From Chloroflexota bacterium (lineage in GTDB: Bacteria; Chloroflexota; Anaerolineae; JAAYEA01), in contig JAAYEA010000076.1 of NCBI GenBank assembly GCA_012689325.1, forward strand, positions 1-39,786: DNA of 39,786 bases, read 5' to 3'. The position numbers and the translations under genes were made by a program. Of this stretch, positions 11,269 to 32,406 are shown in pieces. Under the pieces are notes generated by a model, which was not told the origin of the DNA, did no database searches, and saw nothing but the letters and a program-made list of their open reading frames with translations. Positions within the stretch are counted from its first letter, which is position 1; every line of letters begins with the position of its first letter.

Positions 11269-14200
11269 CTAGTCGTTGTAACGGATCGTCAGCGTGGACA
11301 GGCTCGGGGTGCCCAACTCGGCGTTCACCAGGCTAGAGAGCGCCAGCGGGATGGTCTCGTTGCTCTCCTTCATGGCATCATCGATGATGGTCACGGCAAA
11401 GGTCGCGCTGGTTTGGCCAGGGGCAAAGATCAGCGTGCCGCTGGCCGGAAGATAGTCGGCGCCAGCGGTGGCCGTGCCCTCACCGGTCCGGTAATCCACC
11501 CGCACCTCCACCCCCGAGGCCGCGCTGAGCCGGACCGAGATGACGGCTTGTCCCGCGTTTTCCGCAACATAGTTGTTGGAGAGCGAGAAGCGCAGCGCGT
11601 CGTTATCGGTGATCGAGATGGTGGTGGTGGCGGAAGCGCCCAGCCCCGCGTTCACCGGGTTAGCGAGCGCCAGCAGGATGGTCTCCCCGGCCTCGGCTCG
11701 GGTGTCGTCCAAGATGGTCACGGCAAAGGTCTGGCTCGTCTGGCCAGGGGCAAAGATCAGTGTGCCCTGGGCCGGGACATAATCCTCGCTCGCGGTGGCC
11801 GTGCCCCCTGCGCAGGCGTAATCCACCCGCACCTCTTCCTCGACGGCGACGTTCAGTTTGACGGTGACCAAGACCTGGCCCGCGCTCTCGTTCGCCAGGT
11901 AGGAGGTGGAGCCGAACTTGAGCGAGTCGTTGTCCTTGATGCTTACGCTGGCCGTGGACGGGGAGCCCAGCCCCGCATTCACCGGATTGGAGAGCGTCAG
12001 GCCAAAGGTCTCCGTGGCCTCGGCGAGGGAGTCATCCAGCAGGCGCACGCTCAAGCTTCGGCTCGTCTCGCCAGGGCTCAAGATGACGGTCCCGCTGGCC
12101 GAGAGGTAATCCTGGCCAGGCGTCGCCGTGCCCCCTCCCGTGGCATAGTCCACCCGCACCTCTCGGTCGGCCGGGGCGTTCAGCTTGACGGCGACCACCA
12201 CCTCGCTGGCGTTCTCGTACGCGCTATAGTAGCTTAGGCTAAACCGCACCGCGTCATTGGCCTCGATGGCGAGGGTGGCGGTGGCGGGCGCGCCCAACCC
12301 GGCATTCACCGGCCCGGAGAGCGCCAGGAGGACGGTCTCTTTCTCCTCCGCCTCCTGATCGCTAAGGATGTTCACCGTAAAGGTGCGGCTGGTCTCGCCT
12401 GGCGCAAAGATCAGCGTGCCGCTGGCGGGGAGGTAATCCTGCCCGGCCAGGGCCGAGCCGTCGGCGGTGGCATACGCGACCCGCGTCTCGACCGAGGAGG
12501 GGCCGTTGAGCTTGACCGTCAGGACCGCCTGCCCATCGCTCTCCTTCACCGAGTAGGCGCTCGCGCCAAAGCTGAACGCGTCATTGTCGCCGATGGTGAG
12601 TGCCGCCAGGGCGGGCGCGCCCAGCTCGGCGTTGACCGGGTTCGCCAGTACCAGTTGGACGGTTTCGGCCTCTTCGGCGAGCAGGTCATCCAGGATCGTC
12701 ACCGCAAAACTTTGGGCGGTTTGACCAGGCGCAAAGACCAGCGTGCCGCTGGCGGGAACATAGTCCTCGCCCGCCGCGGCCGTGCCCGGCAGCGCGGCAT
12801 AGTCCACGCGCACCTCCTGGTCCGAGGCGGCGTTGAGGCGGACGTTGATGATCTCCTGGCCCTCGCCCTCTGGGACGCTAACCGAGCTGAGGCTGAATTT
12901 GAGCGTGTCGTTGTCATAGATCTTGATCGTGACCAGGTCCGGCGAGCCTAGCCCGGCGTTCACCGGGTCGAACAGGGTCAGGGTGAAGGTCTCGTCGGCC
13001 TCGGCCTGGAGATCGGCGATGATCGGCAGGGCCAGGCTGTAGCTGGTTTCCCCAGGGGCCAGGACCAGCGTCCCGTCCATGGGCGCATAGTCCAGGCCTG
13101 CCGTGGCCGTGCCCTCCGCGCAGGCATAGCTCACCCGGACCTCCTGGCTGGAGGCCGCGCTGAGCAGGACCGTGACCACGGCCTGCCCGGCGCTCTCGTT
13201 CACCGTGCGCAGGCTGGTGGAGAAATCCAGCGTGTCGTTGTCGTCGATCATCAGGGTGGAGGAGGATCGGCTGCCCAGGATCGCATGGTCGGGATCGCTC
13301 AGGGCCAAGAGGATGGTCTCGTCGGCCTCGGCGAGCACGTCGTCCCAGATGGCGACGCGCACGGCGGCGCTAGTGACGCCGGGGGCCAAGTCCACCGTGC
13401 CGCTGGCCTCGGCATAGTCCGTCCCGGACGTGGCCGTGCCCGCCTGCGTGGCATAGGCGACGGTCACGGGCAGCTCGGAGGCCGGGCTGAGGCGCACCAC
13501 GACCTCCGCGACGCCCGCGCTCTCATTGACATAGGCCGAGCTCAGCTTAAAGTTGACCTCGGGCGGGCCATCGTTGTCCACGATGGTCAGGCTCGCCGCG
13601 GCGGGCGCGCCCAGCCGGCCGTTCACCGGGTCGCTCAGGGTCACCCACAGCTCCTGGTCAGGCTCATCCCGGTTGTCGTCGAGGAGAGGCACCGCGAGCT
13701 CGGCCACCGTCTCGCCGGGGGCAAAGGTCAGGGTGCCGCTGGCGCTCGTATAGTCCTGCCCCGCCAGCGCGCTGCCATCCGTCGTGGCGTAAGCCACCGT
13801 GACCGCGCGCGCCGCCGGCTCGCTCATCACCACCTGGACGATGGCGGGCCCGGCGCCCTCGTCCTGGGCGTAGGAGGGCGCGCTGAAGGCCAGGCTGGGG
13901 TTGACGGGCATCTCGTCCAGCGCGCGCCCCTCGTAGCTGAGGCGGAAAGGCGCGCCGTTGCAGTGGGTGGCCACCCATTCCACCCTCCCGCCGCTGGTCC
14001 CCAGCTTGAGGTTGGGGTAATAGGTCTTGCTCAGGCTGCTGGCCGTCAGGATCTGCTCGGGCGAATCCCAGCCATCGCCGGTATAGCGCCGCCACCAAAG
14101 GCTGCCGGCATCCTCCCAGGCCACCCAGCCTTGCCCATCCTCGCCCTGAGCGATGGAGGGCCACAGGCCCGCGCCCACGTCCACGGGGTCGCCATAGGCC

Positions 14201-16323: not shown

Positions 16324-16444
16324 GATATGCCTCCCGGTGCTCGGTCTGCAAACCCTTGCAGAGGGTCCAGGGATGGCTCGCCCAGCCCACAGCGCGATCT
16401 CGAGCATGCCACCCCTTGGGGCAAACATCCAGTCTACAGTGTAT

Positions 16445-16474
16445 ATCTTAGCGGCTGCCGTTGACCTTGTCAAC
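16445..16474 (-). promoter_or_regulatory. Promoter with overlapping palindrome upstream of the Calx-beta protease
   Basis: On the minus strand, TTGACA (16468-16473), a 17-bp spacer and TAAGAT (16445-16450) form a plausible promoter ~120 bp before the start. The -35 box lies inside a perfect inverted repeat, GTTGAC-CTT-GTCAAC (16460-16474), a good position for a repressor. Confidence 0.55.
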
Positions 16475-16775
16475 AGCCTGTGCTTGCGAAATGCTGACAG
16501 TTTGGGCCTGCTGGCGAGCGGCGTGGGGACCGAGCGCCGCGTGCAGCCATCGCGCCACGCCACCGAGCGCGCGATCGGTGAGGGCAAGGGGTCATCCGCT
16601 GGGGGCAAGCTCATGCGGGTGCGCGACCCGCCGTCTGCGTCCGGTCCAATGGCGAAGAGGGCGTGCCCCCGGCCGCGCCTGACGGAGGTATCGGGATCGC
16701 TGACCTGACTGGCCTTACTAAGTTGGCGGCTCCTTTTACGTGGTCAGCAGGACAGCTTGAGCCCCTTGTGTCGGG
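16475..16775. other. Intergenic region without recognised gene
   Basis: This 301-bp stretch lies between the Calx-beta promoter and the beta-lactamase-like stop codon. Open frames cross it, but none has a ribosome binding site or recognisable protein features. Confidence 0.5.
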
Positions 16776-19496: not shown

Positions 19497-20660
19497 TCAA
19501 GCCCCTGGCTCTGGAAGCCAACCGCGTTTTCTCCAGCGATCGAGCAATGAGGGCCGCGAGGCATACTTTTGGGCCAGTTGATCCAGGCGTGCTTGAAAAG
19601 AGCACCTCGTATCCTGGAACTCGGCCAATTGTTCGAGCCTGACCAACGACGTTGTGGCTTGATCGTAAACAGAAGCGATCTTGCGCCCGGCGTCCAGCAG
19701 GGTTTCCACCTGTCGCCAGGCCTGCGCCTCGCTGGCGGCCAGTGCCTTCATCTCTGCGATATGCTTCTGGCGGGCGGCCTCAGCCTGGCGTTGCTGCTCT
19801 GCCTTGGCCAGTTGTTCAGCCCGCAGGAACAACTCCCGAATGGTTCGTCGCCTCGCCAGCTGAGGGTGTTCTTGAGGCAGGAACGTGCCCAGCCGCTTGC
19901 GCAAGGCAGGCCCCACACCGGGATCGCCTTCAGCCAGGCGCGTCAGGAAATCATCGCATTCCTCGCGGGGCAGGCGACCGATCAGCGTGCCGTAGCCGGC
20001 CGTCAGGGTCTTCCCGCGGTCTGGACTGGCTTCGGCGGCCGCCTGCACTAGGAAGGGATCGATCTCAAAGACCCGGACAAAGCTCTGCAACGACGGAGAG
20101 AGTTCCCTCAAGCCCGGCGGGACCGGTGGCTCGCGGTCCTGAGCGGCCAGGTCGGGGGCGTCCCCTTCGCATCCTTCATCGGCATCCCCGTCGCCATAGC
20201 TGGTCATCGCTTTCAGCCAGGCCAGGTAGAGCAGACGGCAATCGCCTTCCAGCAGGTCGGCGCGCAGTCGCACAAAGTGCGCCAGGCCGGCCTCGGCTTC
20301 CATCCAGCGGCCACCGTCTTCGGGGCCAAAGTCCAGGTCCAGCACCTGGTATCGGCCGATCGCCTCGAAGGTGATGGTTTCATCGACGCAATAGGGCTCA
20401 AGATCGGCGGCATCCAGCAGCCCCTCGGGAAAGCGAAACATCAGCCGCAGGCTGCCCCAGTTCGCCAGGTAAAAGTAGGCATCGAAGTACTTCAACAGCA
20501 CCTGTTTGGGATCGTGGCGGAAGTCGCTCCAGTGGTAGCTGACCACCGCCCGGCTGGGGCCGACCTCGATGTGGCTGGACAGCTCGTTGACCGCGGCCTG
20601 CTCTTCGGGAGTCAGCAGCCGGTCAACCGCCTGCCACTCATGGCACTGGTATACGTCCAT
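19497..20660 (-). CDS. Conserved uncharacterised protein, often seen with SWIM zinc-finger genes
   Basis: The 387-aa protein starts at ATG 20660, 8 bp after the stop of the PRiA4_ORF3-domain gene, so the two form an operon. The N-terminal half has a conserved pattern I recognise from many bacteria but cannot name: HEWQAVDRLLTPEEQAAV, SYHWSDFRHDP, DAYFYLANWGSLRLMFRFP, and later LRADLLEGDCRLLYLAWLKAM and EPPVPPGL. The C-terminal third (residues ~270-360) is a long charged, Ala/Gln-rich coiled coil (RAEQLAKAEQQRQAEAARQKH). From memory, homologues often neighbour SWIM-finger proteins and helicases, and the SWIM/XPB cluster lies just upstream here. Function is unknown; it is probably cytoplasmic. 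Confidence 0.82.
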   Translation of the reverse strand: MDVYQCHEWQAVDRLLTPEEQAAVNELSSHIEVGPSRAVVSYHWSDFRHDPKQVLLKYFDAYFYLANWGSLRLMFRFPEGLLDAADLEPYCVDETITFEAIGRYQVLDLDFGPEDGGRWMEAEAGLAHFVRLRADLLEGDCRLLYLAWLKAMTSYGDGDADEGCEGDAPDLAAQDREPPVPPGLRELSPSLQSFVRVFEIDPFLVQAAAEASPDRGKTLTAGYGTLIGRLPREECDDFLTRLAEGDPGVGPALRKRLGTFLPQEHPQLARRRTIRELFLRAEQLAKAEQQRQAEAARQKHIAEMKALAASEAQAWRQVETLLDAGRKIASVYDQATTSLVRLEQLAEFQDTRCSFQARLDQLAQKYASRPSLLDRWRKRGWLPEPGA

Positions 20661-20668
20661 GGCTGTTC

Positions 20669-22069
20669 CTACCTGGTCGCCTCACGGATCCCCGCCAGGA
20701 GCCTTCTGCCGAAAGCGGTGATCCGGAAGGTGGAGAGCTCGCGGAATCCTGCGCCGAGCCTAGGGTGCGGCTCGTATTCTGGTTGCACGATCCCAAAATC
20801 CACCAGTGGGCTGATCACCGTGTGCTCCATGATGATGCGCAGGATGAGCTGGGCGCTGTCCCGATCTTCGATGGGCCAGTACAGCCCAGCATCTTGGATC
20901 AGCGAATCGGCGAATGGGACGAAGGAGGTCGGCTCCTCCACGGGCGCGGCCAGCAGATGGGTGAGCGCGAGCCGGACAACCGCCGGCGGCATACGGCCGT
21001 CCTCGAAACCATGAGCAGAGGCAACCGCCCAGTTGGTTCGCGTCCACCAGGTCGCCAGCAAGAACCAGACCTGCCAAGGGGCAGGCGCGGCCAGAAAGCG
21101 TTCCCCGAGCGGGGTCAGTTTCCATCGCCGGCTGGGGCCTCCCGTGACCAGGCCGCCCACCGCGGCCAGGACGTGCCGGAAGTAGAGCGGCCAGACATCG
21201 GTCTCGCTGCGCACGCGAAAAACCTGCCCTCCAATGACCGCTTCCAGTTGAGGCGGCTCGACCAGCCGGGCGCAGATCTCGCGTACCGCCTTCAGCGTAA
21301 GGTTTCCGAGGGATGGAGTTCCAGTGACCTTGTTATCACGGAGGTAGGTGAGGAGGACGATGACATCGCGACGAAGCGGCAGGTTCTCTGCCACGATCTG
21401 GTCTTCTGATAGCAGCGCGGGCCCTGGTGCATCCGGCTCGGGCCTCAGCCCGACCGATTCATCGTCCTCCATGGGCCAAGGGCTGCTCGCCTCGGTGCTC
21501 CTGCCGCGACCCATGCTCCGCAGTTGCGCATTGACTTCGGCCAGGTCAAAGGCTGCCGGGTCAAAGTCCCCGCCGATCCAGGTCAGGTATTCCTCATGTT
21601 CCTCGTGGCCGGGGTTGCGGATCGCTTCCAGCATGTGCTGATAGCCCCAGACGCCGCCCACGTCTTCGGGCGGGCAGGCGCGACTGCCCTTCAGGCAGAT
21701 GGGATAGCGGACGCCCTCTTCAGGCGGAAGGATCTTTTCCACCAGCAGCGTGTGTTGCCAGCCATCGCCAAAGTCATATTCGTAGCCGAGCCGTTGCCCC
21801 TCTCGATCGATCACCTGGTTCAGCTTGAAACTGGCTTCGTCCAGGGTGCCCATGTCGCCGAATTCGTCGTCCGCAGGATCGCCGTAGGTTATTCCCTCGA
21901 TCGTGAACAGGTGTAGGTGATAATCCTGCCAGCCCATCACGATCTGCAGGATGTCGTGCAGCTTGAGCAGGGTGGTATTGGCAAGCACCTGGATCCGCCG
22001 CCAGACAGGCGGGCGCGTGCCATTCAGGGTGACTTTGATCTGGTAGATCTGGCCGGGCTTGTTAGGCAT
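20669..22069 (-). CDS. PRiA4_ORF3-domain protein (plasmid pRiA4b ORF-3-like) with extra C-terminal region
   Basis: The 466-aa protein starts at ATG 22069 with AAAGGAGG upstream. Residues ~5-185 match the PRiA4_ORF3 family: IYQIKVTLNGTRPPVWRRIQV, LHDILQIVMGWQDYHLHLF, YDFGDGWQHTLLVEKILP, CLKGSRACPPEDVGGVWGY and DFDPAAFDLAEVN. This fold is found in mobile-element and plasmid genes of unknown activity. Residues ~230-466 form a second, all-helical-looking module with winged-helix-like pieces (WKLTPLGERFL, FRITAFGRRLLAGI) that I cannot assign. It is the first gene of a two-gene unit with the 387-aa protein. A role with the nearby XPB/SWIM genes is inferred from neighbourhood. Confidence 0.88.
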   Translation of the reverse strand: MPNKPGQIYQIKVTLNGTRPPVWRRIQVLANTTLLKLHDILQIVMGWQDYHLHLFTIEGITYGDPADDEFGDMGTLDEASFKLNQVIDREGQRLGYEYDFGDGWQHTLLVEKILPPEEGVRYPICLKGSRACPPEDVGGVWGYQHMLEAIRNPGHEEHEEYLTWIGGDFDPAAFDLAEVNAQLRSMGRGRSTEASSPWPMEDDESVGLRPEPDAPGPALLSEDQIVAENLPLRRDVIVLLTYLRDNKVTGTPSLGNLTLKAVREICARLVEPPQLEAVIGGQVFRVRSETDVWPLYFRHVLAAVGGLVTGGPSRRWKLTPLGERFLAAPAPWQVWFLLATWWTRTNWAVASAHGFEDGRMPPAVVRLALTHLLAAPVEEPTSFVPFADSLIQDAGLYWPIEDRDSAQLILRIIMEHTVISPLVDFGIVQPEYEPHPRLGAGFRELSTFRITAFGRRLLAGIREATR

Positions 22070-22159
22070 CTTGCCCTCCTTTGAACCTATGGGAGAGGGG
22101 CTATCCCCTGCGCCTCTCGCTGTGCTGGTTCAGCGTGAAACGGGATCCTTCGGATGGCT

Positions 22160-22507
22160 AGAGCGTTCCTTTCGCCCTGCCTCCGCCGGCTTGGAAGCCA
22201 CGCGGGCCCTGGTGGATAGACGATGGGACTCGCGACGCTTCGCTTGAGCGACGGCCAACTTGCGTTCGCGCCCTGCCCGGATCAGCTCCTCCGGCCCCCA
22301 GCCGGCCTCGGGGCGCGCTGTGGCCGATGGCGCCGTGCAGCCGATTCCCATTGTACTTCTGAACAAGTTGGGCCACAAGCTGAAGCCCATGGCTCGAGGC
22401 CATCCTGGGTGCCGCCTTGGGAAGCCTCCCGGGGCGTGTTGCTGAGGGCTTGCACCAGCGCTCCCTTGAGCGTCAGATCCTTCTACACCACTTTGCGAGA
22501 CATTATC
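22160..22507 (-). pseudogene. Decayed integrase-type (rve_3) transposase fragment
   Basis: The minus strand encodes LVAQLVQKYNGNRLHGAIGH, matching the C-terminal YNxxRLHxALGY signature of IS3/IS481-type DDE integrases. The continuation expected for such proteins (EELIRAGRERKLAVAQAKRRE) is found in another frame near 22330-22250, so at least one frameshift has occurred. Bases 22471-22507 also resemble 5315-5351. No catalytic DDE core is present. The rest of the 22070-22664 gap shows no gene. Confidence 0.6.
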
Positions 22508-22664
22508 TTCCGCTACATCGCTAGCGGCACGGAACAGGGATCAGTTGCAGGAGTTCTGGTCTTCGCCAAAAGACCAATTCGGCGTCTGGTTGCACGAACC
22601 TTGCGCTAGATTCCAACGGTGACCGGCGTTGAAACCAGCTAGCCGGCGAGAACCCCCCTGAACT

Positions 22665-24152
22665 CTAGCCCGTCAACCCCTCCCTCGTAGCAACGCCGAA
22701 CCGGGCCAGCAACTCCTGCACCTCGGCCAGCTTGTCGCCGGGCACCACCGCCAACGCCCGGTTGCCGGCCGAAAAGGGCGCAAGATAGGGCTGCAGCTCG
22801 GGCTGCTGTCGCAACTCGTCCAGGGCCTCCTGGTCGTGGAACTGGAGCAAGGTCAACGTCTCGGCGGCGGCGCTGCCGTAATAGCCACCCCAGGCCTTGA
22901 GCTGGGCTTCCAGGTTGGCAGGCAGCGTGCCCCGGTGCAGCTTGGCCAGTTCTTCCAGCAGGCGGAGGACCTTGCCTTTGCTGCCCCCGGCCCGCCGCAC
23001 TGACTTTTCGGTCAACTGCCAGCGGCCCTCGCCCGCTTTCTCGGCCAGTTGGTCCAGGCGGCTGCGCAGGTGCAGGCTGGGCACGGCGTGGACGGCCTGG
23101 ATGCTGCCATCCTCCCGGACGAGCACGCTTTTGTCGGCGGCCTCCGGGTCGACACCAGAGACGGCCGGGAACAAATCCTGGCCCACCAATGCGGCGACCA
23201 GCGGCTTTTCGGCGCCCTTGCGCACCAGCGCCACCGCGGGCGAAAGGGCGCGGGCCAGGTGGCTAGCGGTCTGGGGCTCGGCCATCAGTCGCGCCAGCAG
23301 GCTTGCGTCGGCGGCCTGGAGCAGGCTCACGCCGCTGCGAAAGACGATCCGCTCGTGATGGGCGCCCCACTCTTGCAGTGAGCGGCGCACGTTTTGCGGC
23401 AGCTCGACGTCGCTCATCTCTTCCAGCAAGCGAGTGACCTCGGGCACCTCCAGTCCCATCTGCTGCGCCCGGTAGATCGAGTCTCGCGACAGGCGGTAGG
23501 CAAAGGCCCCCCGATCGGCCTGCTGTCGCTCGGCGAACAGGTCCAGACGCGCCAGCCAGGCCAGGCTCACAGGGCCGAGGGCCAACACCTGGAAGCTCGG
23601 TTGGACGACCAGCTTGCCTGACTCTGGGGCCGGGAGCCGAGCATCCTCGCCGGTCAACAGCGCCTGGCCTGGCGGTGTCAAGCGAAACACATTCCCCTGC
23701 CCGCCAATGGTTCCCCGATCGAACAGGCCGAGTTGGGGCAAAAAGCCAGTCACGATCTCCTGAGTGAAGCGCCGCTCGGCCAACTCGAATTCCCGCAGCA
23801 GGTCTTTGGTCGAGCCGGAGTAATAAGCGGTGCCAGAGCGGCCGTAGTAGTAACTGCCGCGATAGTCCTCCACGTAGGTGTGGTTGGCCAGCAGAAAGTC
23901 GGCGTCCCGGTCCATTACTTCGGCCAGGAGTTCTTCCAGTTCAAACCAGGTGCTGGCCGGCAAACCGCGCAGTACGTCCAGCACGACATGGCGGGCATGG
24001 GCCGGGCGGGGGCTGTACTGGCTGATCTCCTTTGCCCAGCCAGACATAGCTTCCAGGCCGGACCAGGCTTCCAGGCAAGCTTTCTGTTGTCGGATTTGGG
24101 GCCAGGTCCAAAAGGGAGGGATGGCCAGAAGATCGGGGTCTTTGAGGCGCAA
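22665..24152 (-). CDS. Helicase_C_3 (XPB/Ssl2 N-terminal-like) protein, C-terminal half of a frameshifted SWIM gene
   Basis: The 495-aa frame begins only at a TTG without a ribosome binding site, and the same frame is readable upstream to about 24195. Residues ~175-300 fit the Helicase_C_3 family (LVVQPSFQVLALGPVSLAWL, FAYRLSRDSIYRAQQMGLEVPEV, LPQNVRRSLQEWGAHHERIVF), the domain found at the N-terminus of XPB/Ssl2 helicases. The tail (EKPLVAALVGQDLFPAVSGVDPEAADKSVLVRED onward) continues the same architecture. The preceding SWIM-domain frame runs out of register here, so the native product was probably a single ~970-aa protein. It may be an assembly indel or a true break. Confidence 0.82.
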   Translation of the reverse strand: MRLKDPDLLAIPPFWTWPQIRQQKACLEAWSGLEAMSGWAKEISQYSPRPAHARHVVLDVLRGLPASTWFELEELLAEVMDRDADFLLANHTYVEDYRGSYYYGRSGTAYYSGSTKDLLREFELAERRFTQEIVTGFLPQLGLFDRGTIGGQGNVFRLTPPGQALLTGEDARLPAPESGKLVVQPSFQVLALGPVSLAWLARLDLFAERQQADRGAFAYRLSRDSIYRAQQMGLEVPEVTRLLEEMSDVELPQNVRRSLQEWGAHHERIVFRSGVSLLQAADASLLARLMAEPQTASHLARALSPAVALVRKGAEKPLVAALVGQDLFPAVSGVDPEAADKSVLVREDGSIQAVHAVPSLHLRSRLDQLAEKAGEGRWQLTEKSVRRAGGSKGKVLRLLEELAKLHRGTLPANLEAQLKAWGGYYGSAAAETLTLLQFHDQEALDELRQQPELQPYLAPFSAGNRALAVVPGDKLAEVQELLARFGVATREGLTG

Positions 24153-25587
24153 CTGCCCGGGTTGGCGCTGGACCAGGTCCAGTTGAGGTGGCGGCCTTCA
24201 TCTCGGCCAGGGCATAGTCGTCGCCGAACTCGATGACGGTCAGGTTTTCGTAGAGACGCAGCCCACCGTAGGCTGCCCACCAGGCAGCCAGTTGCTCGCC
24301 GATGGCCTGCGGCACCGGGATGCCCAGCAGGCGATCCCACTCGGCCAGGAGGTCGTCCAGGACGGCGCCATCTTCAAACGCCTGGTAGGCGGCCTGGGCG
24401 TCCAACCGGTAGACAAAACGGTCCGGCTCGGTCATCTCCAGGCGGGCCAGGTCCGGGTCGGTCAGGGGCGGGGCCGGCGGCGGCACCGTCAGGGGCAGGT
24501 CCGGGCCGGGCGGCGAGCCCAGCAGACCTTCGCGCTCGGCCTGGGCCAGTTCCACCGGGTCATAGTCCCAACCTTGTAGCTCGCGGTGAAAGCGCTCCAG
24601 GCGGGGGCGGGGCATGGGCGGGCGGAGTGGCAGGGGCGCCTGCTCCAGCAGCAGGATGAGCCGGCCGGCAGCTCGCACCAGGGCCGAGGGGTCGGCCAGT
24701 TGCAGGCCGCTGGCGACGCTGTCGTCCGGCAGGTCGCAGGATGCGGGGACGACGTCCTCCAGCAGCGGCGGGAAGCGGCGGGCCAGAATCGGGGGCACAA
24801 AGCCGATCTGGAAATAGGGATCGCTGCTCTTGACCGACCAGGACAGGGCAAGGCCTTGATCCCCCAGGTGGAGGCTGTAGGTCTCGATCTGCTTGTGGCG
24901 CTTTGGTTCTCCCCACATCTTGGCCAGCCGGGCCACGTCCTCGGGGCGGACCTGGTCGTCGCCCAGCACGAGCAGGGCACGGAGGACCTGGCCGTGCTCG
25001 CGGTCCAGCCCGGCGATGGCCCGGCGCAGGTCGTCGGCGTCGTCGATCTCGGCCAGGACCTGGCCAACCACTTCGGCCTTGCGCGAGCCGCGCAACGTCC
25101 AACCGCGCTGTTTGGCCATGCTGCGCAAATCCTGGATGGTGATGTGATCCAACCATTGGGCCAATTGCTGGCGGTCCCGCTGCTGGCGCTCCTCGAAACG
25201 GTCGGCCAGCCAGGCCGGCGGCTGGTCCGGGCGCCGGGTCGGCGGGGGCGCAACGGGGGTGGCGGGCAGGGGAAAGCCGGGAAGGGCGGCAGCCGGCGCC
25301 TCAACGGCAAAGGCGCCGGGCGTTTGCAGCCACCTGAGCAGGACGGCGCCGACGTGTTTGCAGTAGCCGCCCCAGGTGTAGGGGCAACTGCACTGGGCGC
25401 GGATGCCGCCCGGCGAGACCTCGACCTCGACCTGGTACATATAGGTGCCGCGCACCTGGGCGCTGAGGGCCTGGCCGGCGCGCACCGGGTTGTGGATCGA
25501 GTCCAGGTAGCCGCGCGCCTTGCGTAGACTCTGATCGCTCAGCGGGCCGCGCAGGTCGTTTTCGGTCAGGGTTTCCAGGCTGGGCAT
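23941..25587 (-). CDS. SWIM zinc-finger protein, N-terminal half of the frameshifted gene
   Basis: ATG 25587 lies 3 bp after the XPB helicase stop, with a GGAG element inside that gene's end, so translation is probably coupled. Residues ~65-79 carry the SWIM finger CxCx(n)CxH (CSCPYTWGGYCKH), a DNA/protein-binding zinc site. Residues ~130-260 are helical (LDHITIQDLRSMAKQRGWTLRGSRKAEVVGQVL resembles a SAP-like DNA-binding helix pair). Homology-like sequence holds to about ALAEMKAAT (near 24195). Beyond that the frame gives low-complexity Pro/Gly/Arg junk to the stop at 23941, while the true continuation lies in the -1 frame. The intact protein would join this to the Helicase_C_3 half. Confidence 0.82.
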   Translation of the reverse strand: MPSLETLTENDLRGPLSDQSLRKARGYLDSIHNPVRAGQALSAQVRGTYMYQVEVEVSPGGIRAQCSCPYTWGGYCKHVGAVLLRWLQTPGAFAVEAPAAALPGFPLPATPVAPPPTRRPDQPPAWLADRFEERQQRDRQQLAQWLDHITIQDLRSMAKQRGWTLRGSRKAEVVGQVLAEIDDADDLRRAIAGLDREHGQVLRALLVLGDDQVRPEDVARLAKMWGEPKRHKQIETYSLHLGDQGLALSWSVKSSDPYFQIGFVPPILARRFPPLLEDVVPASCDLPDDSVASGLQLADPSALVRAAGRLILLLEQAPLPLRPPMPRPRLERFHRELQGWDYDPVELAQAEREGLLGSPPGPDLPLTVPPPAPPLTDPDLARLEMTEPDRFVYRLDAQAAYQAFEDGAVLDDLLAEWDRLLGIPVPQAIGEQLAAWWAAYGGLRLYENLTVIEFGDDYALAEMKAATSTGPGPAPTRAVAPQRPRSSGHPSLLDLAPNPTTESLPGSLVRPGSYVWLGKGDQPVQPPPGPCPPCRAGRTARFAGQHLV

Positions 25588-25590
25588 GGG

Positions 25591-27387
25591 CTATTCTCCA
25601 GAGACCAGGTGCCGGGACCGGACCTCGACGAATTCACCGGCCAGGGTCGCCGGCGCGTGGTCGGCCACCTCATCCTCGTAGAGAATCGTGTAGCGGTAGC
25701 CCTGCTCGGTGAGGAAAAGCTGGCGGTTGGCGCTATAGTCCTGGTCGTTGGTGTCTTTGCTGACCAGGGTGTAAAAGTGGGCCAGCAGGCCGTTCCTTTT
25801 GGGGCGCAGGATGCGACCCAGGCGTTGGGCTTCCTCCTGGCGGCTGCCGAAGGTGCCGCTGATCTGGATCATGACGTTGGCGTCGGGCAGGTCGATGGCA
25901 AAGTTGCCCACCTTGGAGACAATCAGGCAGCGGAATTCGCCCCCACGGAACTGGCGGTAGAGCTTGCGCCGCTCGCGCACCGCCGTCTTGCCGGTGATGA
26001 GCGGGAAATCATAACGGTCAGCCACCTGCTGGAGCTGCTCCAGGTACATGCCGATGATCAACACCTGGTCGTCGGCGTGTTTGGCCAGGAGTTGGTCCAA
26101 CACATCAAACTGGGCCGGGTTCTCGGCGGCGGCGACACGATATTTCTGGCGGGGCTCGGCCAGGGCATAGTCCATGCGTTGTTCGGGTGGCAGGTTGATG
26201 CGGACCTCGGTCACGTCGGCGGTGGCGATCCAGCCCTGCTTTTCCAGGTCTTTCCAGGGCACGTCGTACTTTTTGGGGCCGATGAGCGAGAACACGTCGG
26301 TCTCGCGGCCATCCTCGCGGACCAGGGTGGCGGTCAAGCCCAGGCGGCGGCGGGCTTGCAGCTCGGCGGTGATGCGAAACACCGGCGCGGGCAGCAGGTG
26401 TACCTCGTCGTAGATGATCAGGCCCCAGTTCCGCAGGTCGAACAGCTCAAAGTGAGGGAATTCATCAGCCAGGGCATAACCGCGCCCCTTGGTGCCGCGC
26501 TTGCGGTAGGTCATGGTCTGGTAGGTGGAGATGGTGACGGGCCGGATCTCCTTGCGTTGCCCGGTGTACTCGCCCACCTGGTCTTCGGCCAGCGTCGTTT
26601 TGTCCAGCAGCTCGTCGATCCACTGCCGCACGGCGACCGTGTTGGGCGTGAGGATCAGGGTGTTGCACTGCATCTCGGCCATGACGGCCATGCCAACCAT
26701 CGTCTTGCCCGCGCCGCAGGGCAGGACGACGACGCCCGAGCCGCCGTGGGCCGCGCCGCCGGCGTAAAAGACGTCGGCGGACTCTTGCTGGTAGCGGCGC
26801 AGGGCAAAAGGCTGGGCGCCCAGCGTCATCGGCCGCAGGTGCAGATCCAGGGCTTCGCCGTTCACGTAGCCGACCAGGTCCTCGGCCGGGTAGCCGATCT
26901 CGACCAGGGCATGTTTGATGTGGCCCCGCCGGGCGGGGACCATTTTGAGGGTCAGGGCGTCCAGCGGGGCGGTGATGAACGGCGCGAGCTGCTTGTGGCG
27001 GGCCAGCTCGGCGATGAGCGGCCCGTCGTCGGAGTAGAGAACCAGGCTTTGCCCCGAGGGGCTCGAGGGATCCTTGCGCCAGGCGAGTTTGACCCGCCCG
27101 TAGCGCGAGATATACTCCTGGACGTCTACCCGGACGTTGCCGGGCAGCGGGTACTTGCTGTAGCGTTCCAGGCCGTCGAGGATGGCCTCGGCGCTCGTGC
27201 CGGCCGAGGCGGCGTTCCACAACGACAGGGGTGTGATGCGGTAGGTGTGGACGTATTCCGGGCTCTTCTCCAACTCGGCAAAACGGGCCAACACGTCGCG
27301 GGCCTGCGGGTAGAGGTCGTTGTCCACCTCCAGCAAGACGCTCTTGTCGCCCTGGACGATGACAGGATTGTGCGAATGGTAGGTCAT
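25591..27387 (-). CDS. XPB/Ssl2-family DNA helicase
   Basis: The 598-aa length is normal for bacterial and archaeal XPB. The N-terminal ~190 residues hold a Helicase_C_3-like and damage-recognition-like region (LARFAELEKSPEYVHTYRITPLSLWNAAS). The SF2 core shows Walker A at ~222 (LPCGAGKTMVG), the DEVH box at ~323 (IIYDEVHLLP), motif III plus the XPB-specific RED loop at ~355 (GLTATLVREDGRETD), and motif VI at ~521 (EAQRLGRILRPKR). XPB is a 3'-5' translocase that opens DNA in repair and transcription; archaeal forms pair with the Bax1 nuclease, which is absent here. It is the first gene of an operon with the SWIM/Helicase_C_3 gene. ATG 27387 lacks a clear ribosome binding site, so the start is less certain. 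Confidence 0.95.
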   Translation of the reverse strand: MTYHSHNPVIVQGDKSVLLEVDNDLYPQARDVLARFAELEKSPEYVHTYRITPLSLWNAASAGTSAEAILDGLERYSKYPLPGNVRVDVQEYISRYGRVKLAWRKDPSSPSGQSLVLYSDDGPLIAELARHKQLAPFITAPLDALTLKMVPARRGHIKHALVEIGYPAEDLVGYVNGEALDLHLRPMTLGAQPFALRRYQQESADVFYAGGAAHGGSGVVVLPCGAGKTMVGMAVMAEMQCNTLILTPNTVAVRQWIDELLDKTTLAEDQVGEYTGQRKEIRPVTISTYQTMTYRKRGTKGRGYALADEFPHFELFDLRNWGLIIYDEVHLLPAPVFRITAELQARRRLGLTATLVREDGRETDVFSLIGPKKYDVPWKDLEKQGWIATADVTEVRINLPPEQRMDYALAEPRQKYRVAAAENPAQFDVLDQLLAKHADDQVLIIGMYLEQLQQVADRYDFPLITGKTAVRERRKLYRQFRGGEFRCLIVSKVGNFAIDLPDANVMIQISGTFGSRQEEAQRLGRILRPKRNGLLAHFYTLVSKDTNDQDYSANRQLFLTEQGYRYTILYEDEVADHAPATLAGEFVEVRSRHLVSGE

Positions 27388-27467
27388 AAACCGGATTCAT
27401 CCCTTCGAGACCACTAGCCTGCTATCTTGGCGCAGAACGGGCGCAGGGGCAAATTGGCAAGGAGGAA

Positions 27468-27496
27468 TTGATGTGGCGGGTAGAGGGGGATATACT
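27468..27496 (+). promoter_or_regulatory. Promoter of the divergent Helicase_C_3-type gene
   Basis: TTGATG (27468-27473), a 17-bp spacer and TATACT (27491-27496) form a good sigma70-type promoter, placing transcription start near 27503. This argues that translation starts at ATG 27527 (with GGAGGG 7 bp upstream) and not at the earlier GTG at 27473. Confidence 0.7.
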
Positions 27497-27526
27497 GGGG
27501 CAGATCTGAACGTGGAGGGTGGGAGT

Positions 27527-29368
27527 ATGCCAGGAGGAGGGAGCACACCGGAGCCGGATCTGCTGCGCGGGGTACTGGAGAGTTACACCGTGCCCGTGCT
27601 GCGCGGGCTGGCCGGGCTGCTGGACAGGGGGCTGCCGACACGCAAGGCCGAGCTGGTGAGCCTGATCCTGGAACACCTACAAGATCCCCTACGACTGCGG
27701 CAACTATGGGCGGAGCTCGACGAACGGCAACAGGCGGCGGTGGCCGAGACGGTCCATTCGGCCTCGGGCCAGCTCGACGGGGCTGCCTTTCGGGCCAAGT
27801 ACGGCGCAGATCCCCACTGGGGCCGGATCAGCCGCTGGGGGTTGATAGAGGACCCTTCGCCGTTATGTCTGTTCATCTGCAGTGGCCGGATGCCCCGCGA
27901 TCTGCGAGGATGGCTCAAGGCGTTCGTGCCGGCTCCGCGCGCCGCCCGGATCAAGACGGCCGATGGGCCGCCAGACACCCTCTCCCAGGGTTGGACCAAC
28001 GGCCAGACGAACCAGGAAGAGACCGTCGAGATCCCGGTGATCCGCGCGGAGATGGAGCGGGCGGCGCAACACGACCTGCTGGCCGTGTTGCGCCTGGTGG
28101 ACGCCGGCAAGGTCCGGGTCAGCGACAAGACCAAGCAGGCAACGGCCGCCGGGGCGCGGGCGATCACCGCCGTGTTGCAGGGCGGCGATTTCTACCCGCC
28201 GGTCGAAAGCTCCGACCCCTGTACGACGGAGCCGGGTCCCATCAAAGCGTTCGCCTGGCCGTTGATCCTCCAGGCGGCTGGCCTGGCCGAGGCCTCGGGG
28301 ACCAAGCTCCAGCTCACCGCAGCCGGCCGCAAGGCGCTGACCTCGCCGCCCCACGAGACGATCCGCCGCGCCTGGAATCGCTGGCTCAAGACGACGATGC
28401 TGGACGAGTTCAACAGGGTGCACACCATCAAGGGGCAGACAGGCAAGGGCAAACGGCAGATGACGGCAGTATCAGGCCGGCGCCAGGTGATCGCCGAGGC
28501 CTTGGCCACCTGCCCGCCACACGAGTGGCTGGCCTTCGACGAGTTCTCCCGTTTCATGCGCGCTTCCGGCCACCAGTTCGAAGTCGCCCGTGACCTGTGG
28601 CATCTCTATATCAGCGACCCGAACTATGGCAGCCTGGGCTATTCCGGCTGTGGCGATTGGCCCATCGTCCAGGGCCGCTATCTGCTGGCCTTCCTGTTCG
28701 AGTATGCAGCCACGCTGGGCCTGGTGGACGTGGCCTACATCCGCCCTGCCGGCGCCCGCGACGACTATGGCAAGTTATGGGGAGTGGACGATCTTGATTG
28801 TCTGAGCATCTACGATGGGCTGTTGTACCTGCGCCTCAATGGCCTGGGCGCCTGGTGCCTAGGGCTGAGCGATGCGTACGCGCCCTCGCCGCTGGAGGTG
28901 CGCCAGGTGCTCCGGGTGCTGCCCAATCGAGATGTGGTGGCGGTGGAGCCGCTCGATCCGGCCGACACCCTGTTCGTGGAGCAGTTTGCCACGCAGACCT
29001 CCGACGTGGTGTGGCGGATCGAGCCGGCCAAGCTGCTGGAGATGCTGGAGCAAGGCCATGCGGTAGCCGAGGTGGACGAGTTCTTGACAGCCCGGAGCGG
29101 CGACCGTCTGCCGGACAACGTGGCCGTCTTGCTGAAAGAGATGGGTGAACGGGCATCGCAACTCGTGGATCTCGGCCCGGCACGGTTGATCGAGGCTCGG
29201 GACGCAGCACTGATGCAACTCGTCGCAAACGACAGTCGCCTCAAGTCTTTGTGTCTTCCGGCTGGAGAAAGATACCTGGCCATACCGGCCGACTCGGAAG
29301 CTGCTTTCCGCCGCGCCCTGCGGGAGCTGGGGTATGGGCTGCCCTTGTCTCGGACGGGGAGACCGTAG
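27527..29368 (+). CDS. Helicase_C_3 (XPB N-terminal-like) domain protein, divergent from XPB
   Basis: The 613-aa product runs from ATG 27527. No ATPase motifs are seen. The N-terminal part is helical (LRGLAGLLDRGLPTRKAELVSLILEHL, a SAP-like arrangement, then AELDERQQAAVAETV). The middle has winged-helix-like pieces (LQLTAAGRKAL). Residues ~455-590 fit the Helicase_C_3 pattern (VLRVLPNRDVVAVEPLDPADTLFVEQFA, WRIEPAKLLEMLEQGHAVAEVDEFLTARSGDRLPDNV, RYLAIPADSEAAFRRALRELGY). It is transcribed away from the XPB gene from its own promoter. Together with the SWIM gene it makes two free copies of the XPB-N-type domain beside one XPB motor, so it is probably a loading or regulatory partner. Confidence 0.85.
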   Translation: MPGGGSTPEPDLLRGVLESYTVPVLRGLAGLLDRGLPTRKAELVSLILEHLQDPLRLRQLWAELDERQQAAVAETVHSASGQLDGAAFRAKYGADPHWGRISRWGLIEDPSPLCLFICSGRMPRDLRGWLKAFVPAPRAARIKTADGPPDTLSQGWTNGQTNQEETVEIPVIRAEMERAAQHDLLAVLRLVDAGKVRVSDKTKQATAAGARAITAVLQGGDFYPPVESSDPCTTEPGPIKAFAWPLILQAAGLAEASGTKLQLTAAGRKALTSPPHETIRRAWNRWLKTTMLDEFNRVHTIKGQTGKGKRQMTAVSGRRQVIAEALATCPPHEWLAFDEFSRFMRASGHQFEVARDLWHLYISDPNYGSLGYSGCGDWPIVQGRYLLAFLFEYAATLGLVDVAYIRPAGARDDYGKLWGVDDLDCLSIYDGLLYLRLNGLGAWCLGLSDAYAPSPLEVRQVLRVLPNRDVVAVEPLDPADTLFVEQFATQTSDVVWRIEPAKLLEMLEQGHAVAEVDEFLTARSGDRLPDNVAVLLKEMGERASQLVDLGPARLIEARDAALMQLVANDSRLKSLCLPAGERYLAIPADSEAAFRRALRELGYGLPLSRTGRP

Positions 29369-29528: not shown

Positions 29529-30131
29529 CTATGGTGGCAAAATCAGCTTGACTAGCCGCGCTTCGAGGTTAGCGAGATAGGCATCGGGATCTTGACGAAA
29601 GTACCGCTGTTGGACACGTTGCTGACAGCGCTGTTCCAGCTTCGCGCGTAGGGAGCGCCAGGCACCCGGGTCCACTGCCGCCAGGTCGGCAGATGAGAAG
29701 GAACGTGATCGGCTGGCCACGGCGGCCACGATGCGCACTGGGCCGCGCAAAACCAGTGCTGGCGAAGCGGCCTTGCGGCCCGTGACCCGCCGCTCGTGAT
29801 GGCGATGGGCGCCAAAGAAATGCTCCAAATCATTGTTGGTCCGCGGCAGTTCTGACACATCATAGCAGTGGAACAAGCCGGGCCAGTAGCTGCGTGTGAC
29901 TTTCAGGAAGTGTCGAATGGCAGGCTCCAGATTGCCAGCTCTGGCCTGCCACCGTCGCATGGCGCCCAGCAATCCCTGGTAACATCGCCGTACTTGGGTG
30001 CTCTCCTGCCCCGCTTCGTTGGCCAGAATATGCGCTGCCAAGTGTACCCATTGATAGGCGACCTCGATGGGCTCCCACAAGGTCTCGGTCTCTCGCAGCG
30101 CGCGCCCTATGACTGCTTCAAGCCTGGCCAA
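29529..30131 (-). CDS. IS transposase, C-terminal part (-1 frame)
   Basis: The 200-aa frame continues the transposase in the -1 register. It carries the likely catalytic Glu in RTNNDLEHFFGAHRHHERRVTGRK, a pattern common to the last helix of DDE transposases. Upstream the frame is readable through LPTELARLEAVIGRALRETE up to the A6 run at 30149-30154, where the first frame ends in a few foreign residues. The product is probably made only as a fusion with the upstream frame. Its C-terminus overlaps the left inverted repeat. Confidence 0.82.
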   Translation of the reverse strand: MARLEAVIGRALRETETLWEPIEVAYQWVHLAAHILANEAGQESTQVRRCYQGLLGAMRRWQARAGNLEPAIRHFLKVTRSYWPGLFHCYDVSELPRTNNDLEHFFGAHRHHERRVTGRKAASPALVLRGPVRIVAAVASRSRSFSSADLAAVDPGAWRSLRAKLEQRCQQRVQQRYFRQDPDAYLANLEARLVKLILPP

Positions 30132-31126
30132 CTCCGTAGGAAGCGCCCTTTTTTACCAACCCGCTCCAAACTGCGGGCGATCGACCTCAAGCGCCGTCGC
30201 AAGCGCAGACCAGCGGCATCCAGAGGTGGCAGCCCATCGTCAGTCAAGGCACTGCGAATCGCTTGGCAGTAATCTTGAGTGATCCGACTCAGCTCATCCT
30301 CACGGCCCTCAACTTGGCGCTCCAGCGGACGTACGCCACGCACCCGTTTCTTGAGTTCCTTCTTGGCATGGCGATCCGCTGCATAGATGGGCCTGGCAGC
30401 TTCTCGCAAGTAGTGGTAGTGGCACAATCCGTGGGGTATCCCTGGCAAGGCTTTGGCCACGGCCTTGCGAATCGAGTGTTGTCCATCGCTAATCACTCCA
30501 ACAACCGGAACAGGCAAGTCCACCGTGACCTCTTCCAGTAGGCGGGCCAAGTCGTCTTGCGTGGCTGACAATAGTGATCGCGCCAGAAGCACCTCTCCCG
30601 ACAGGCAATCCCGCACGACCCACAGAACCTCATGCCCCACATCTGGCTGCAAGCCATCCATCGCCAGAATCACACGCCCTTGCTCTGCCATGATTTGCCG
30701 CAGACGAGCACGGTTCTGCAAAGATAACGAGACCAGCTCATCATACCGCTGTAGCAGATTCGTCACGCTGCGCTGGCTGATCTGCACACCGCGCTTTTCC
30801 AGCCGAGTATGCATCTCTGGTACGGTGTGATGCTCCTGATAGCGCCATATCCCTATTTGGGCGACCACATCCAAGCCATATTCGTGGCCAGGCAACGACC
30901 ACCCCCCTTCGGCTTCAGGCCGGTATGGCCGATGATACTGCCCACACGTAGGGACCTGACACCGGCGCACCTTCAGTGTCAGCCGCACGACCTCCTCCAA
31001 AGTGCTGACCGAGCGAGTGTTCTCATAATCCACCCACATGGGACCGCCACACGCTGGGCACACGCGCTGCACACATTCCAGGGTCTGCTCTCGAGTCGCC
31101 GCCGGGCCGCTTGTTCTCCTGGCCAT
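30107..31126 (-). CDS. IS transposase, N-terminal part with zinc finger and first two catalytic Asp
   Basis: Start ATG 31126 (MARRTSGP) is preferred over 31144, because a promoter-like TAGACA-16 bp-TATACT sits at about 31153-31180, almost touching the earlier ATG. A zinc-finger-like CPACGGP...CQVPTCGQYH lies at residues ~25-70. Helix-turn-helix-like helices follow (YQEHHTVPEMHTRLEKRGVQISQRSVTNLLQRYDEL). The DDE core begins with AMDGLQPDVG and VGVISDGQHSIRKAV, then HGLCHYHYLREAARPIYAADRHAKKELKKRVRG. The frame stops ~14 residues after an A6G3 run (KKG), where a -1 shift joins the second part. Similar transposases exist in many phyla; the family name is left open. Confidence 0.85.
   Translation of the reverse strand: MARRTSGPAATREQTLECVQRVCPACGGPMWVDYENTRSVSTLEEVVRLTLKVRRCQVPTCGQYHRPYRPEAEGGWSLPGHEYGLDVVAQIGIWRYQEHHTVPEMHTRLEKRGVQISQRSVTNLLQRYDELVSLSLQNRARLRQIMAEQGRVILAMDGLQPDVGHEVLWVVRDCLSGEVLLARSLLSATQDDLARLLEEVTVDLPVPVVGVISDGQHSIRKAVAKALPGIPHGLCHYHYLREAARPIYAADRHAKKELKKRVRGVRPLERQVEGREDELSRITQDYCQAIRSALTDDGLPPLDAAGLRLRRRLRSIARSLERVGKKGRFLRSWPGLKQS
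30146..30154 (-). promoter_or_regulatory. A6G3 slippery run at the transposase frame junction
   Basis: The run reads AAAAAAGGG on the minus strand, with zero-frame codons GGT-AAA-AAA-GGG. The two transposase frames join in the -1 register here. The run could support ribosomal or transcriptional slippage, as in several IS families, although the phase is not the canonical A-AAA-AAG reading. A plain inactivating indel is equally possible. Confidence 0.45.
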
Positions 31127-31201
31127 ACCGTGCCCCCCAACCATGTTTGCCCACAGTATAGCTGCCCTGCCGCCATTGTCTAGCCAGTTTTGCCACTATA
31201 G

Positions 31202-31469
31202 TTTTTTTGAGCCACTCCAGCTCCATCTTGAGCCGCCCGATCTGCTCATAGAGCTCGGCCTGCTGAGCTTCCTTGTCTCGCTGTTGGCGAACCGTGGCCG
31301 TACTGAAGAGATTGGCTCCGTCCTTCAAGAGTTGGTTCTTCCACTCGCTGATCTGGGTGGTGTGGACCTCGTACTCGCTGGACAGCTCGTTGAGGGTCTT
31401 TGTCCCCTTGGCTGCTTCAAGAGCCACTTTGAATTTGAACTCGGCACTACGCTGTTTCCGTCTTGCCAT
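31202..31469 (-). pseudogene. IS3-family OrfA, truncated by the IS insertion
   Basis: ATG 31469 follows a perfect GGAGGTGAT site. The 89 native residues are a typical IS3 OrfA: a helix-turn-helix (FKFKVALEAAKGTKTLNELSSEYEVHTTQISEWKNQLL) and a leucine-zipper-like helix (EAQQAELYEQIGRLKMELEWLKK). OrfA proteins normally end about ten residues later. Here the frame runs into the inserted IS at 31201 and on to 31023 as foreign sequence. No OrfB follows on the far side of the insertion, so the element is dead. Confidence 0.85.
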
Positions 31470-31510
31470 AATATCACCTCCACATGCTGTTCATGATACC
31501 TCAAGTTTCG

Positions 31511-31574
31511 CCTAGCATGTGGCCTAGTTTTCGGGGTACATTATACTCCGCATGTGGTCCAGTTCTTGGGGATA
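31511..31574. repeat. Two tandem IS3-type inverted-repeat-like sequences
   Basis: On the minus strand two similar ~25-bp blocks (31511-31540 and 31548-31574) both read CCCC...AACT..(A/G)CCACATGC. One is the expected outer end of the IS3-type element; the second could be the end of an older element or of a circularised or tandem copy. Confidence 0.5.
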
Positions 31575-31616
31575 ATCATAGATAGCACATCCGGCGATTG
31601 ATGTCCTGGGGTCAAC

Positions 31617-31645
31617 TGGACACGTGGAGGCAATTGGTGTATATT
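31617..31645 (+). promoter_or_regulatory. Promoter of the toxin-antitoxin operon
   Basis: TGGACA (31617-31622), 17 bp and TATATT (31640-31645), in an AT-rich patch unlike its surroundings, precede the antitoxin gene. Transcription would start near 31652, making the early ATG at 31655 unlikely as the start codon. Confidence 0.5.
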
Positions 31646-31696
31646 ATGTTATAAATGTACAGAATATATATAAACACGAGCAGCGAGGCAGAGCGC

Positions 31697-31972
31697 ATGG
31701 AAAGGCAAATGGGAGTCACCGAGGCACGCAAGCAGTTCGCGCAGATGATCGACGAGGTCCAGTACAAGGGCGACAACTATATCATTGTGCGACATGGCGA
31801 GCCAGCCGCGGCGGTGGTGCCGGTGGAGGTCTATCTGCAATGGCGGCGGGAGCGGGAGGAGCTCTTCGCTCTCATCCGCAGCGTCCGGGCCGCGAACGCC
31901 GATGCGGACCCGGATCAGGTGCTGCGGGATGTGCTGGAGGCACAACAGGCCGTGCGCCGGTCGGCTGAGTGA
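31697..31972 (+). CDS. Phd/YefM-type antitoxin
   Basis: The 91-aa protein runs from ATG 31697; ATG 31655 is also in frame but too close to the predicted transcription start, and ATG 31709 is another option. It has the Phd pattern: MGVTEARKQFAQMIDEVQYKGDNYIIVRHGEPAAAVVPVEVYLQW, a DNA-binding dimer domain, followed by a charged helical C-terminal tail that would bind and block the toxin. Its stop codon overlaps the toxin start region. Such antitoxins usually repress their own operon. Confidence 0.9.
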   Translation: MERQMGVTEARKQFAQMIDEVQYKGDNYIIVRHGEPAAAVVPVEVYLQWRREREELFALIRSVRAANADADPDQVLRDVLEAQQAVRRSAE

Positions 31973-32406
31973 GTATGGACATGCGCGTCGTCCTGGATGC
32001 CAACGTGCTGGTGAGCGCGCTCATCTCTCCGCGCGGGGCCACGGCCCAGCTCCTTCAGGTGTGGGAGGAGGGGCGATTGCCCTTGCTCATCTCCGAGGCC
32101 ATCCTCCGCGAGCTGGACCGCGTCCTGCACTATCCCAAGCTGCAGGAACGCTACCGGCTGCCTGAGGGCCGGATCGCGCGGTTCCTGCAGTTCCTGCGCA
32201 CGCAGGGCGTCCTGGTGGAGCCTATCAAGCGGCTTTCGGTCATCGAGCGCGACCCCACCGACGATCGCTATCTGGAGTGCGCCGTCGCCGGCGAAGCGCA
32301 GATCATCGTCAGCGGCGACAAGCATCTCCTGGAGTTGGGCACCTATCAGGGCATCCAGATTCTGTCTCCGGCTGGGTTCCTGGCCTTCCTCAGGTTGGGG
32401 CCATGA
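31969..32406 (+). CDS. PIN-domain toxin (putative ribonuclease)
   Basis: Translation may start at GTG 31969, overlapping the antitoxin stop, or at ATG 31975 or 31981; the last gives the usual MRVVLDANVLVSAL-type beginning. The product is ~141-145 aa. The PIN acidic residues are visible: Asp in VLDANVLVSAL, Glu in SEAILRELDRVL, Asp in RDPTDDRYLECAVAG and Asp in IIVSGDKHLLEL. PIN toxins cleave RNA in a metal-dependent way. Together with the Phd-type antitoxin this is a type II module placed directly beside an IS graveyard, a common location for mobile TA pairs. Confidence 0.92.
   Translation: MSMDMRVVLDANVLVSALISPRGATAQLLQVWEEGRLPLLISEAILRELDRVLHYPKLQERYRLPEGRIARFLQFLRTQGVLVEPIKRLSVIERDPTDDRYLECAVAGEAQIIVSGDKHLLELGTYQGIQILSPAGFLAFLRLGP

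Follow-up and report, generated by a model that had tools for sequence, protein, structure and literature searches.

An XPB helicase encoded beside putative p52-like clutch partners in a Chloroflexota genome

The window analysed here is a stretch of 39,786 nucleotides from a Chloroflexota bacterium (contig JAAYEA010000076.1 of assembly GCA_012689325.1, positions 1 to 39,786 of the forward strand). It carries a gene for an XPB/ERCC3-type helicase flanked on both sides by genes, called A, B and C below, whose products contain the Helicase_C_3 domain (PF13625), the clutch-type domain that XPB itself has at its N-terminus. The set is probably an XPB translocase with clutch regulators resembling p52 (GTF2H4)/Tfb2, a subunit of eukaryotic TFIIH, and would act, again probably, in DNA repair. 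This view is based on the gene and domain content of the window, the recurrence of the set in other genomes, the genome-wide co-occurrence of XPB with such partners and the fold resemblance of two modelled partners to p52.

XPB and its partners in the window

The XPB gene (25591-27387, minus strand) encodes an intact superfamily 2 helicase-translocase of 598 amino acids, the motor of the set. It was recognised by the NCBIfam model NF045503, "DNA repair helicase XPB", with 838 bits (cut-off 610) and by TIGR00603 with 345 bits (cut-off 329). PF13625 was located at residues 9-137 (E 9.4e-34), and the GAGKT (Walker A), DEVH and RED motifs were all intact, so that the single XPB motor placed here by an earlier note on this DNA was borne out. 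By profile, the closest solved relatives were eukaryotic XPB (1e-122) and then archaeal XPB (6e-61). The XPB protein most like that of the window (78%) came from locus L144, the record of which is titled Acidobacteriota, a case of either misbinning or transfer. The same genome as the window has a second XPB gene on contig C102 (locus L005, 2178-3896), the product of which is 67% identical, with no partners beside it.

Gene C (27527-29368, plus strand) is divergent from the XPB gene, from which it is separated by an intergenic region at 27388-27526. It is intact and encodes a p52-like protein of 613 amino acids in which an array of winged helices precedes a Helicase_C_3 (clutch) domain. An alternative start of the open reading frame (ORF) lies at 27473, and in the ORF of 27473-29368 PF13625 was detected with E 3.5e-7 and 30.7 bits, under the curated cut-off of 34.2. 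The C orthologue in locus L096, which lies directly after XPB and is 70% identical to C, reached 36.6 bits.

On the other side of XPB, the region 22665-25587 had been read in the earlier note as a single gene joining a SWIM zinc finger to Helicase_C_3, but the region in fact holds two ORFs that overlap and are read in different frames; these are what is left of a tandem gene pair on the minus strand. The A remnant (23941-25587), defined by PF04434, PF13625 and alignment to the intact A of L096, L099 and L049, retains a SWIM zinc finger (CxC...CxH; PF04434, 21.9 bits, over the cut-off of 19.6), a winged-helix region and a Helicase_C_3 domain. The PF13625 match of the latter (E 1.9e-7, 31.5 bits) was under the same Pfam cut-off as that of C and is backed by the A orthologue of L096, which gave 50.4 bits. 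The B remnant (22665-24152, with homology starting at 24182) comprises the last winged-helix part and two Helicase_C_3 domains (PF13625, E 4.8e-27). The claim that the proteins flanking XPB carry Helicase_C_3, and that one also has a SWIM finger, therefore held: the sub-cut-off matches in C and the A remnant are supported by the L096 orthologues and, for C, also by the fold.

The closest intact cluster found, L096 (genome G309), has the order XPB-C-A-B on one strand, with an A of 778 amino acids (SWIM plus Helicase_C_3) and a B of 778 amino acids (two Helicase_C_3 domains); in L099 (genome G410) the order is XPB-A-B-C. When the window was aligned to L096, residues 1-367 of A mapped to 25587-24511 and residues 649-737 to 24450-24184, while residues 272-777 of B mapped to 24182-22674 with 57% identity. 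The breakpoints within the A remnant are thus at 24511/24450 and at 24184. About 280 amino acids are gone inside A, as are its final 41, and B is without its first 271 or so and out of frame with A. The loss at the A/B junction, where the frame changes at 24182-24184, amounts to about 1.2 kb, covering the end of A (about 41 amino acids), the intergenic region and the first 271 amino acids of B. This damage is either a real deletion or a fault of the assembly, a draft of 580 contigs.

The same genome also holds an intact pair of such genes, A' and B' (639 and 752 amino acids), on contig C281 (locus L115, 7620-11794) with no XPB beside them; after the pair comes a gene for a protein of 1246 amino acids that has HEAT repeats and weakly matches Schlafen/AlbA_2. 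It is possible, although we lean against it, that the cassette in the window is a decaying remnant and that only the second XPB on C102 and the A'/B' pair on C281 work in this organism. The two missing pieces and the frame change in A and B would be in line with such decay, as would the intact copies elsewhere in the genome; XPB and C, however, are full-length with the XPB motifs intact, and the losses in a draft assembly may be joining artefacts.

Recurrence of the set and co-occurrence with XPB

Tandem sets of XPB, A and B were found in ten other loci (L043, L049, L051, L058, L096, L099, L145, L146, L147 and L149; in L049 the last gene is truncated at the contig end), showing that the set recurs beyond chance. 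A single XPB accompanied by several Helicase_C_3 proteins, SWIM-bearing in one case, as had been proposed, is thus a real set that is also present in relatives.

A scan of named genomes yielded 80 bacterial and archaeal XPB loci, in which related species were counted separately and do not represent independent events. A Helicase_C_3 partner was present in the flank at 48 of these, in all cases on the XPB strand and in 42 within 2 kb. The taxa concerned were Streptomyces, Cellulomonas, Arthrobacter, Corynebacterium, Planctomycetota, Latescibacterota, Hydrogenedentota, Bacillota, Thorarchaeota and a Nitrososphaerales archaeon. For the 32 loci without a partner in the flank, 21 genomes have one elsewhere. 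Three Thorarchaeota loci (L163, L168 and L169) encode an XPB bearing the N-terminal domain, with a Helicase_C_3 protein 1.7-3.6 kb downstream; two of the three gave sub-threshold matches to the Pfam Tfb2 model, an observation relevant to the origin of TFIIH.

Within the Chloroflexota, XPB is patchy (32 of 201 genomes), and PF13625 was detected in 101 of 301 genomes. All 54 XPB-positive genomes (51 by a strong match to the N-domain, plus G092, G187 and G134), which span 19 families, had at least two PF13625 matches and so at least one beyond that of XPB itself, compared with 47 of the 247 XPB-negative genomes having any match (Fisher p = 8e-32, kinship uncorrected). Most Chloroflexota XPB genes, including that on C102, stand alone, an arrangement that the earlier note had regarded as speaking against a module; but the genomes with a lone XPB hold partners elsewhere, and the association is therefore genome-wide, more than local.

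SNF2 as a possible second motor for C-type proteins

In 12 Chloroflexota loci (L101, L103-L111, L113 and L114), a gene for a C-type (p52-like) protein forms a three-gene unit, in the order SNF2-SWIM-C, with genes for a DUF3670/SNF2 ATPase and a small SWIM protein. In a tree of 20 C-type sequences, those from XPB contexts and those from SNF2 contexts were split with full branch support, the root being arbitrary. The tree suggests that the adaptor may have changed its motor once, between XPB and SNF2, in either direction. The C orthologues of L097 and L098 are encoded with no XPB in the vicinity, so the link between C and XPB is not a strict one.

Likeness of the partners to p52/Tfb2

The AlphaFold2 model of C (mean predicted local distance difference test score, pLDDT, 82) was compared with 350,542 PDB chains using Foldseek. 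All 17 matches at E ≤ 1e-3 were p52/Tfb2, the best being 8ebs_D at 9.5e-8; XPB chains came next, starting at 5e-3, and after them a single p52 fragment and noise. With the model of B' (pLDDT 82, predicted template modelling score 0.56), the best p52 match was at 3e-11 and all 38 PDB matches at E ≤ 1e-3 were p52 or XPB. Since the p52 matches outrank the XPB matches, the likeness exceeds what the shared clutch domain alone would give.

Sequence profiles pointed to the same two families. A profile of 47 diverse partners, covering winged helices, clutch and tail, was searched against 177,635 PDB sequences and found only XPB (3.5e-13) and p52/Tfb2, the values for the latter being 4e-10 for human p52, 3.5e-8 for residues 90-362 of C. 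thermophilum Tfb2 and 9e-7 for the yeast protein. B-type profiles also found XPB and p52/Tfb2 only, save one match at E 0.35. The Pfam Tfb2 model (PF03849) matched B' (L115, 9539-11794) with 38.4 bits, over its curated cut-off of 34.5; in the whole-genome scan B' gave 34.6 bits, a borderline value, along with neighbouring matches. Sub-threshold Tfb2 matches were seen in other B proteins and in proteins from Bacillota, Latescibacterota and Thorarchaeota. Because only 12 of the 301 Chloroflexota genomes had a Tfb2 match at E ≤ 1e-3, one of them over the cut-off, the Pfam model alone would miss the family. We consider the likeness of the clutch domain to p52 and the XPB N-domain firm, and a full-length likeness of the partners to p52 probable.

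Several results weigh against p52-like regulators working with XPB. In the window itself A and B are damaged, and none of its three partner proteins reached the curated cut-off of PF03849. Profiles of the winged helices only found no p52 among the PDB sequences, the N-terminal half of p52 (6tru) was matched weakly (E 0.1-0.4, probability 0.5-0.85), and global template modelling scores against p52 were low (0.2-0.46), as expected for hinged domains, which is not proof. Neither p8/Tfb5 (PF06331), which partners the C-terminal module of p52, nor p44/Ssl1 was found in this genome. C-type proteins occur with SNF2 in place of XPB at the 12 loci above, or with neither motor. Finally, no partner was detected at E 1e-3 in 11 of the 80 XPB genomes, among them the Fibrobacter group (L174, L175, L180, L185 and L195), Brevibacillus (L203, L218 and L221) and small drafts; in the Fibrobacter group and Brevibacillus the partner has been lost or is too divergent, or XPB has a different one.

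Because the winged-helix sequence search found no p52 and the 6tru match was weak, homology beyond the clutch is drawn from the full-length Foldseek alignments. The partners might instead be unrelated to p52, copies of the XPB N-domain having been fused, in events separate from those in eukaryotes, to bacterial winged helices of other origin; such proteins would still bind XPB or SNF2. The failure of the winged-helix region alone to match p52 would fit this origin, as would the presence of C-type proteins beside SNF2, and the clutch and the XPB N-domain are homologous in any case. We nevertheless judge it unlikely, since the E-values of the C and B' models are several orders of magnitude better for p52 than for XPB, the Tfb2 profile is over its cut-off in B', and the alignment to C. 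thermophilum Tfb2 (residues 90-362) extends before and through the clutch.

Comparison with known systems

The partners share with TFIIH p52 a clutch of the XPB-N fold, winged helices ahead of it and an accompanying XPB with an N-terminal domain, and p52 was the best PDB match for two independent models. They differ from p52 in that their winged-helix part is not recognisable by sequence and in that some have an additional clutch domain, end differently or carry a SWIM finger; there are also several partner paralogues per genome, unlike in TFIIH, besides the lack of p8 and p44 already mentioned. The XPB neighbours of Actinobacteria (for example in Streptomyces, Cellulomonas and Corynebacterium) are likewise PF13625 proteins encoded on the XPB strand, by an ORF of about 700-1200 codons. 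In that set there is one partner instead of three, it is placed upstream of XPB, and no SWIM finger was found in it. Rv0862c of M. tuberculosis is presumably another XPB-neighbour protein of this actinobacterial kind. The SNF2-SWIM gene pair of bacteria resembles the present set in joining a SWIM protein and a C-type protein to an ATPase motor, but the motor differs and SWIM is there a separate small protein.

The archaeal XPB-Bax1 helicase-nuclease also pairs XPB with a dedicated protein partner. DUF790, which we take to be Bax1, was not found in this genome while the archaeal and Deinobacterium controls were detected, in agreement with the absence of Bax1 stated in the earlier note. The window XPB further differs from the archaeal system in having an N-terminal domain; the XPB of A. 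fulgidus is noted in the M. tuberculosis XPB paper to be without the standard one (PMC3353954).

The PF13625 neighbour of actinobacterial XPB is visible in public genome data, and the gene pair as such is therefore open to view. According to the 2012 work on M. tuberculosis XPB, homologues of p44 and p52 had not been found in bacteria (PMC3353954), and no later report of bacterial p52 or p44 homologues was found in the literature searched, the scope of which left out subscription papers and preprints. What appears to be new is the recognition of the partners as p52-like, the sets with several subunits and the exchange with SNF2.

Proposed mechanism and function

In TFIIH, the p52 clutch shares the fold of the XPB N-terminal domain, and the pseudo-symmetric dimer of the two recruits XPB (PMC6422496); p52 also sets the ATPase rate of XPB, p52/p8 stimulating XPB when DNA is absent and restraining its rate when DNA is present (PMC7708078). 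By analogy, each clutch domain in A, B and C would pair pseudo-symmetrically with the XPB N-terminal domain to form a complex, in which the winged helices, together with the SWIM zinc finger of A, would tether the motor to DNA or other proteins. The XPB motor would then open or remodel duplex DNA, most likely in DNA repair. With the local A and B damaged and C intact, the A'/B' pair on C281 could serve both XPB copies. Regulation of XPB by p52-like proteins is supported by the window XPB keeping the p52-binding N-terminal domain and by the absence of Bax1. The earlier suggestion that the Helicase_C_3 proteins are accessory to the motor, perhaps as loaders, comes close to the p52-like regulators favoured here.

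A bacterial promoter of sigma-70 type is opened without the help of an XPB motor, and XPB has a patchy distribution in the phylum and is dispensable there; a role of the set in transcription, like that of TFIIH at promoters, is therefore improbable. What speaks for it is that eukaryotic p52 and XPB act in both processes (PMC6422496). The dedicated defence or accessory-island system proposed in the earlier note has very little likelihood, since, even with transposase fragments and a PhdYeFM/PIN pair just beyond the set and XPB patchy in the phylum, the PADLOC defence models gave only weak, generic SWIM or helicase similarity, no nuclease or other effector was seen recurring in the set, and the partner genes adjoin XPB in numerous Actinobacteria, in Planctomycetes and in further phyla.

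Neighbouring genes

Two further minus-strand genes had been counted as part of the module. The first (20669-22069) encodes a PRiA4_ORF3 domain (PF07929, 5.5e-71), a domain call that stands, followed by about 235 C-terminal amino acids. This C-terminal part occurred in 1 of 150 other genomes; it showed a weak likeness to the winged helices of C (hhalign probability 57%, E 1e-4), and being weak only, this was rejected as homology. Another PRiA4_ORF3 gene lies right after XPB in L057 (10890-11615), one of about 30 XPB loci. The second gene (19497-20660) encodes an uncharacterised protein of 387 amino acids that is present in 14 of 201 Chloroflexota genomes including this one; its neighbours are not conserved, and none of the other copies in these genomes is at an XPB locus. 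Neither gene was retained as a member of the module, since an association with XPB is not conserved for either.

Between gene C and a PhdYeFM/PIN pair at 31655-32406 lie transposase remnants (29529-31469), with one fragment of MULE/IS66-like type, one of HTH_Tnp_1 type and an unassigned ORF of 200 amino acids; the two named fragments and the pair all fall within 30107-32406. The insertion sequence remnants and toxin-antitoxin pair on which an accessory island had been proposed are thus present, but a defence island is unsupported, because XPB and its partners adjoin each other in many phyla. Farther away, at 11269-16614, a very long ORF (1781 amino acids) has a subtilase-like N-terminus followed by Calx-beta-like repeats, recognised by eye.

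Implications

Going beyond this locus, we regard as evenly balanced the proposition that a minimal TFIIH-like module of XPB and p52-like clutch subunits exists in bacteria and in some archaea, including Thorarchaeota, and predates eukaryotic TFIIH, that the Chloroflexota version has expanded to three paralogous clutch subunits, one of them with SWIM, and that the clutch subunit has been exchanged with an SNF2 motor. If the partners described here are p52-like, the question of what bacterial XPB works with can be addressed directly using a pair of small proteins, a regulator can be assigned to bacterial XPB, and the origin of the XPB-p52 clutch of TFIIH may lie before the eukaryotes. At the position of human XPB T119, 37 of the 47 partner sequences have T or S, and p52-like partners would then also offer a simple system for studying clutch positions linked to human disease, such as T119.

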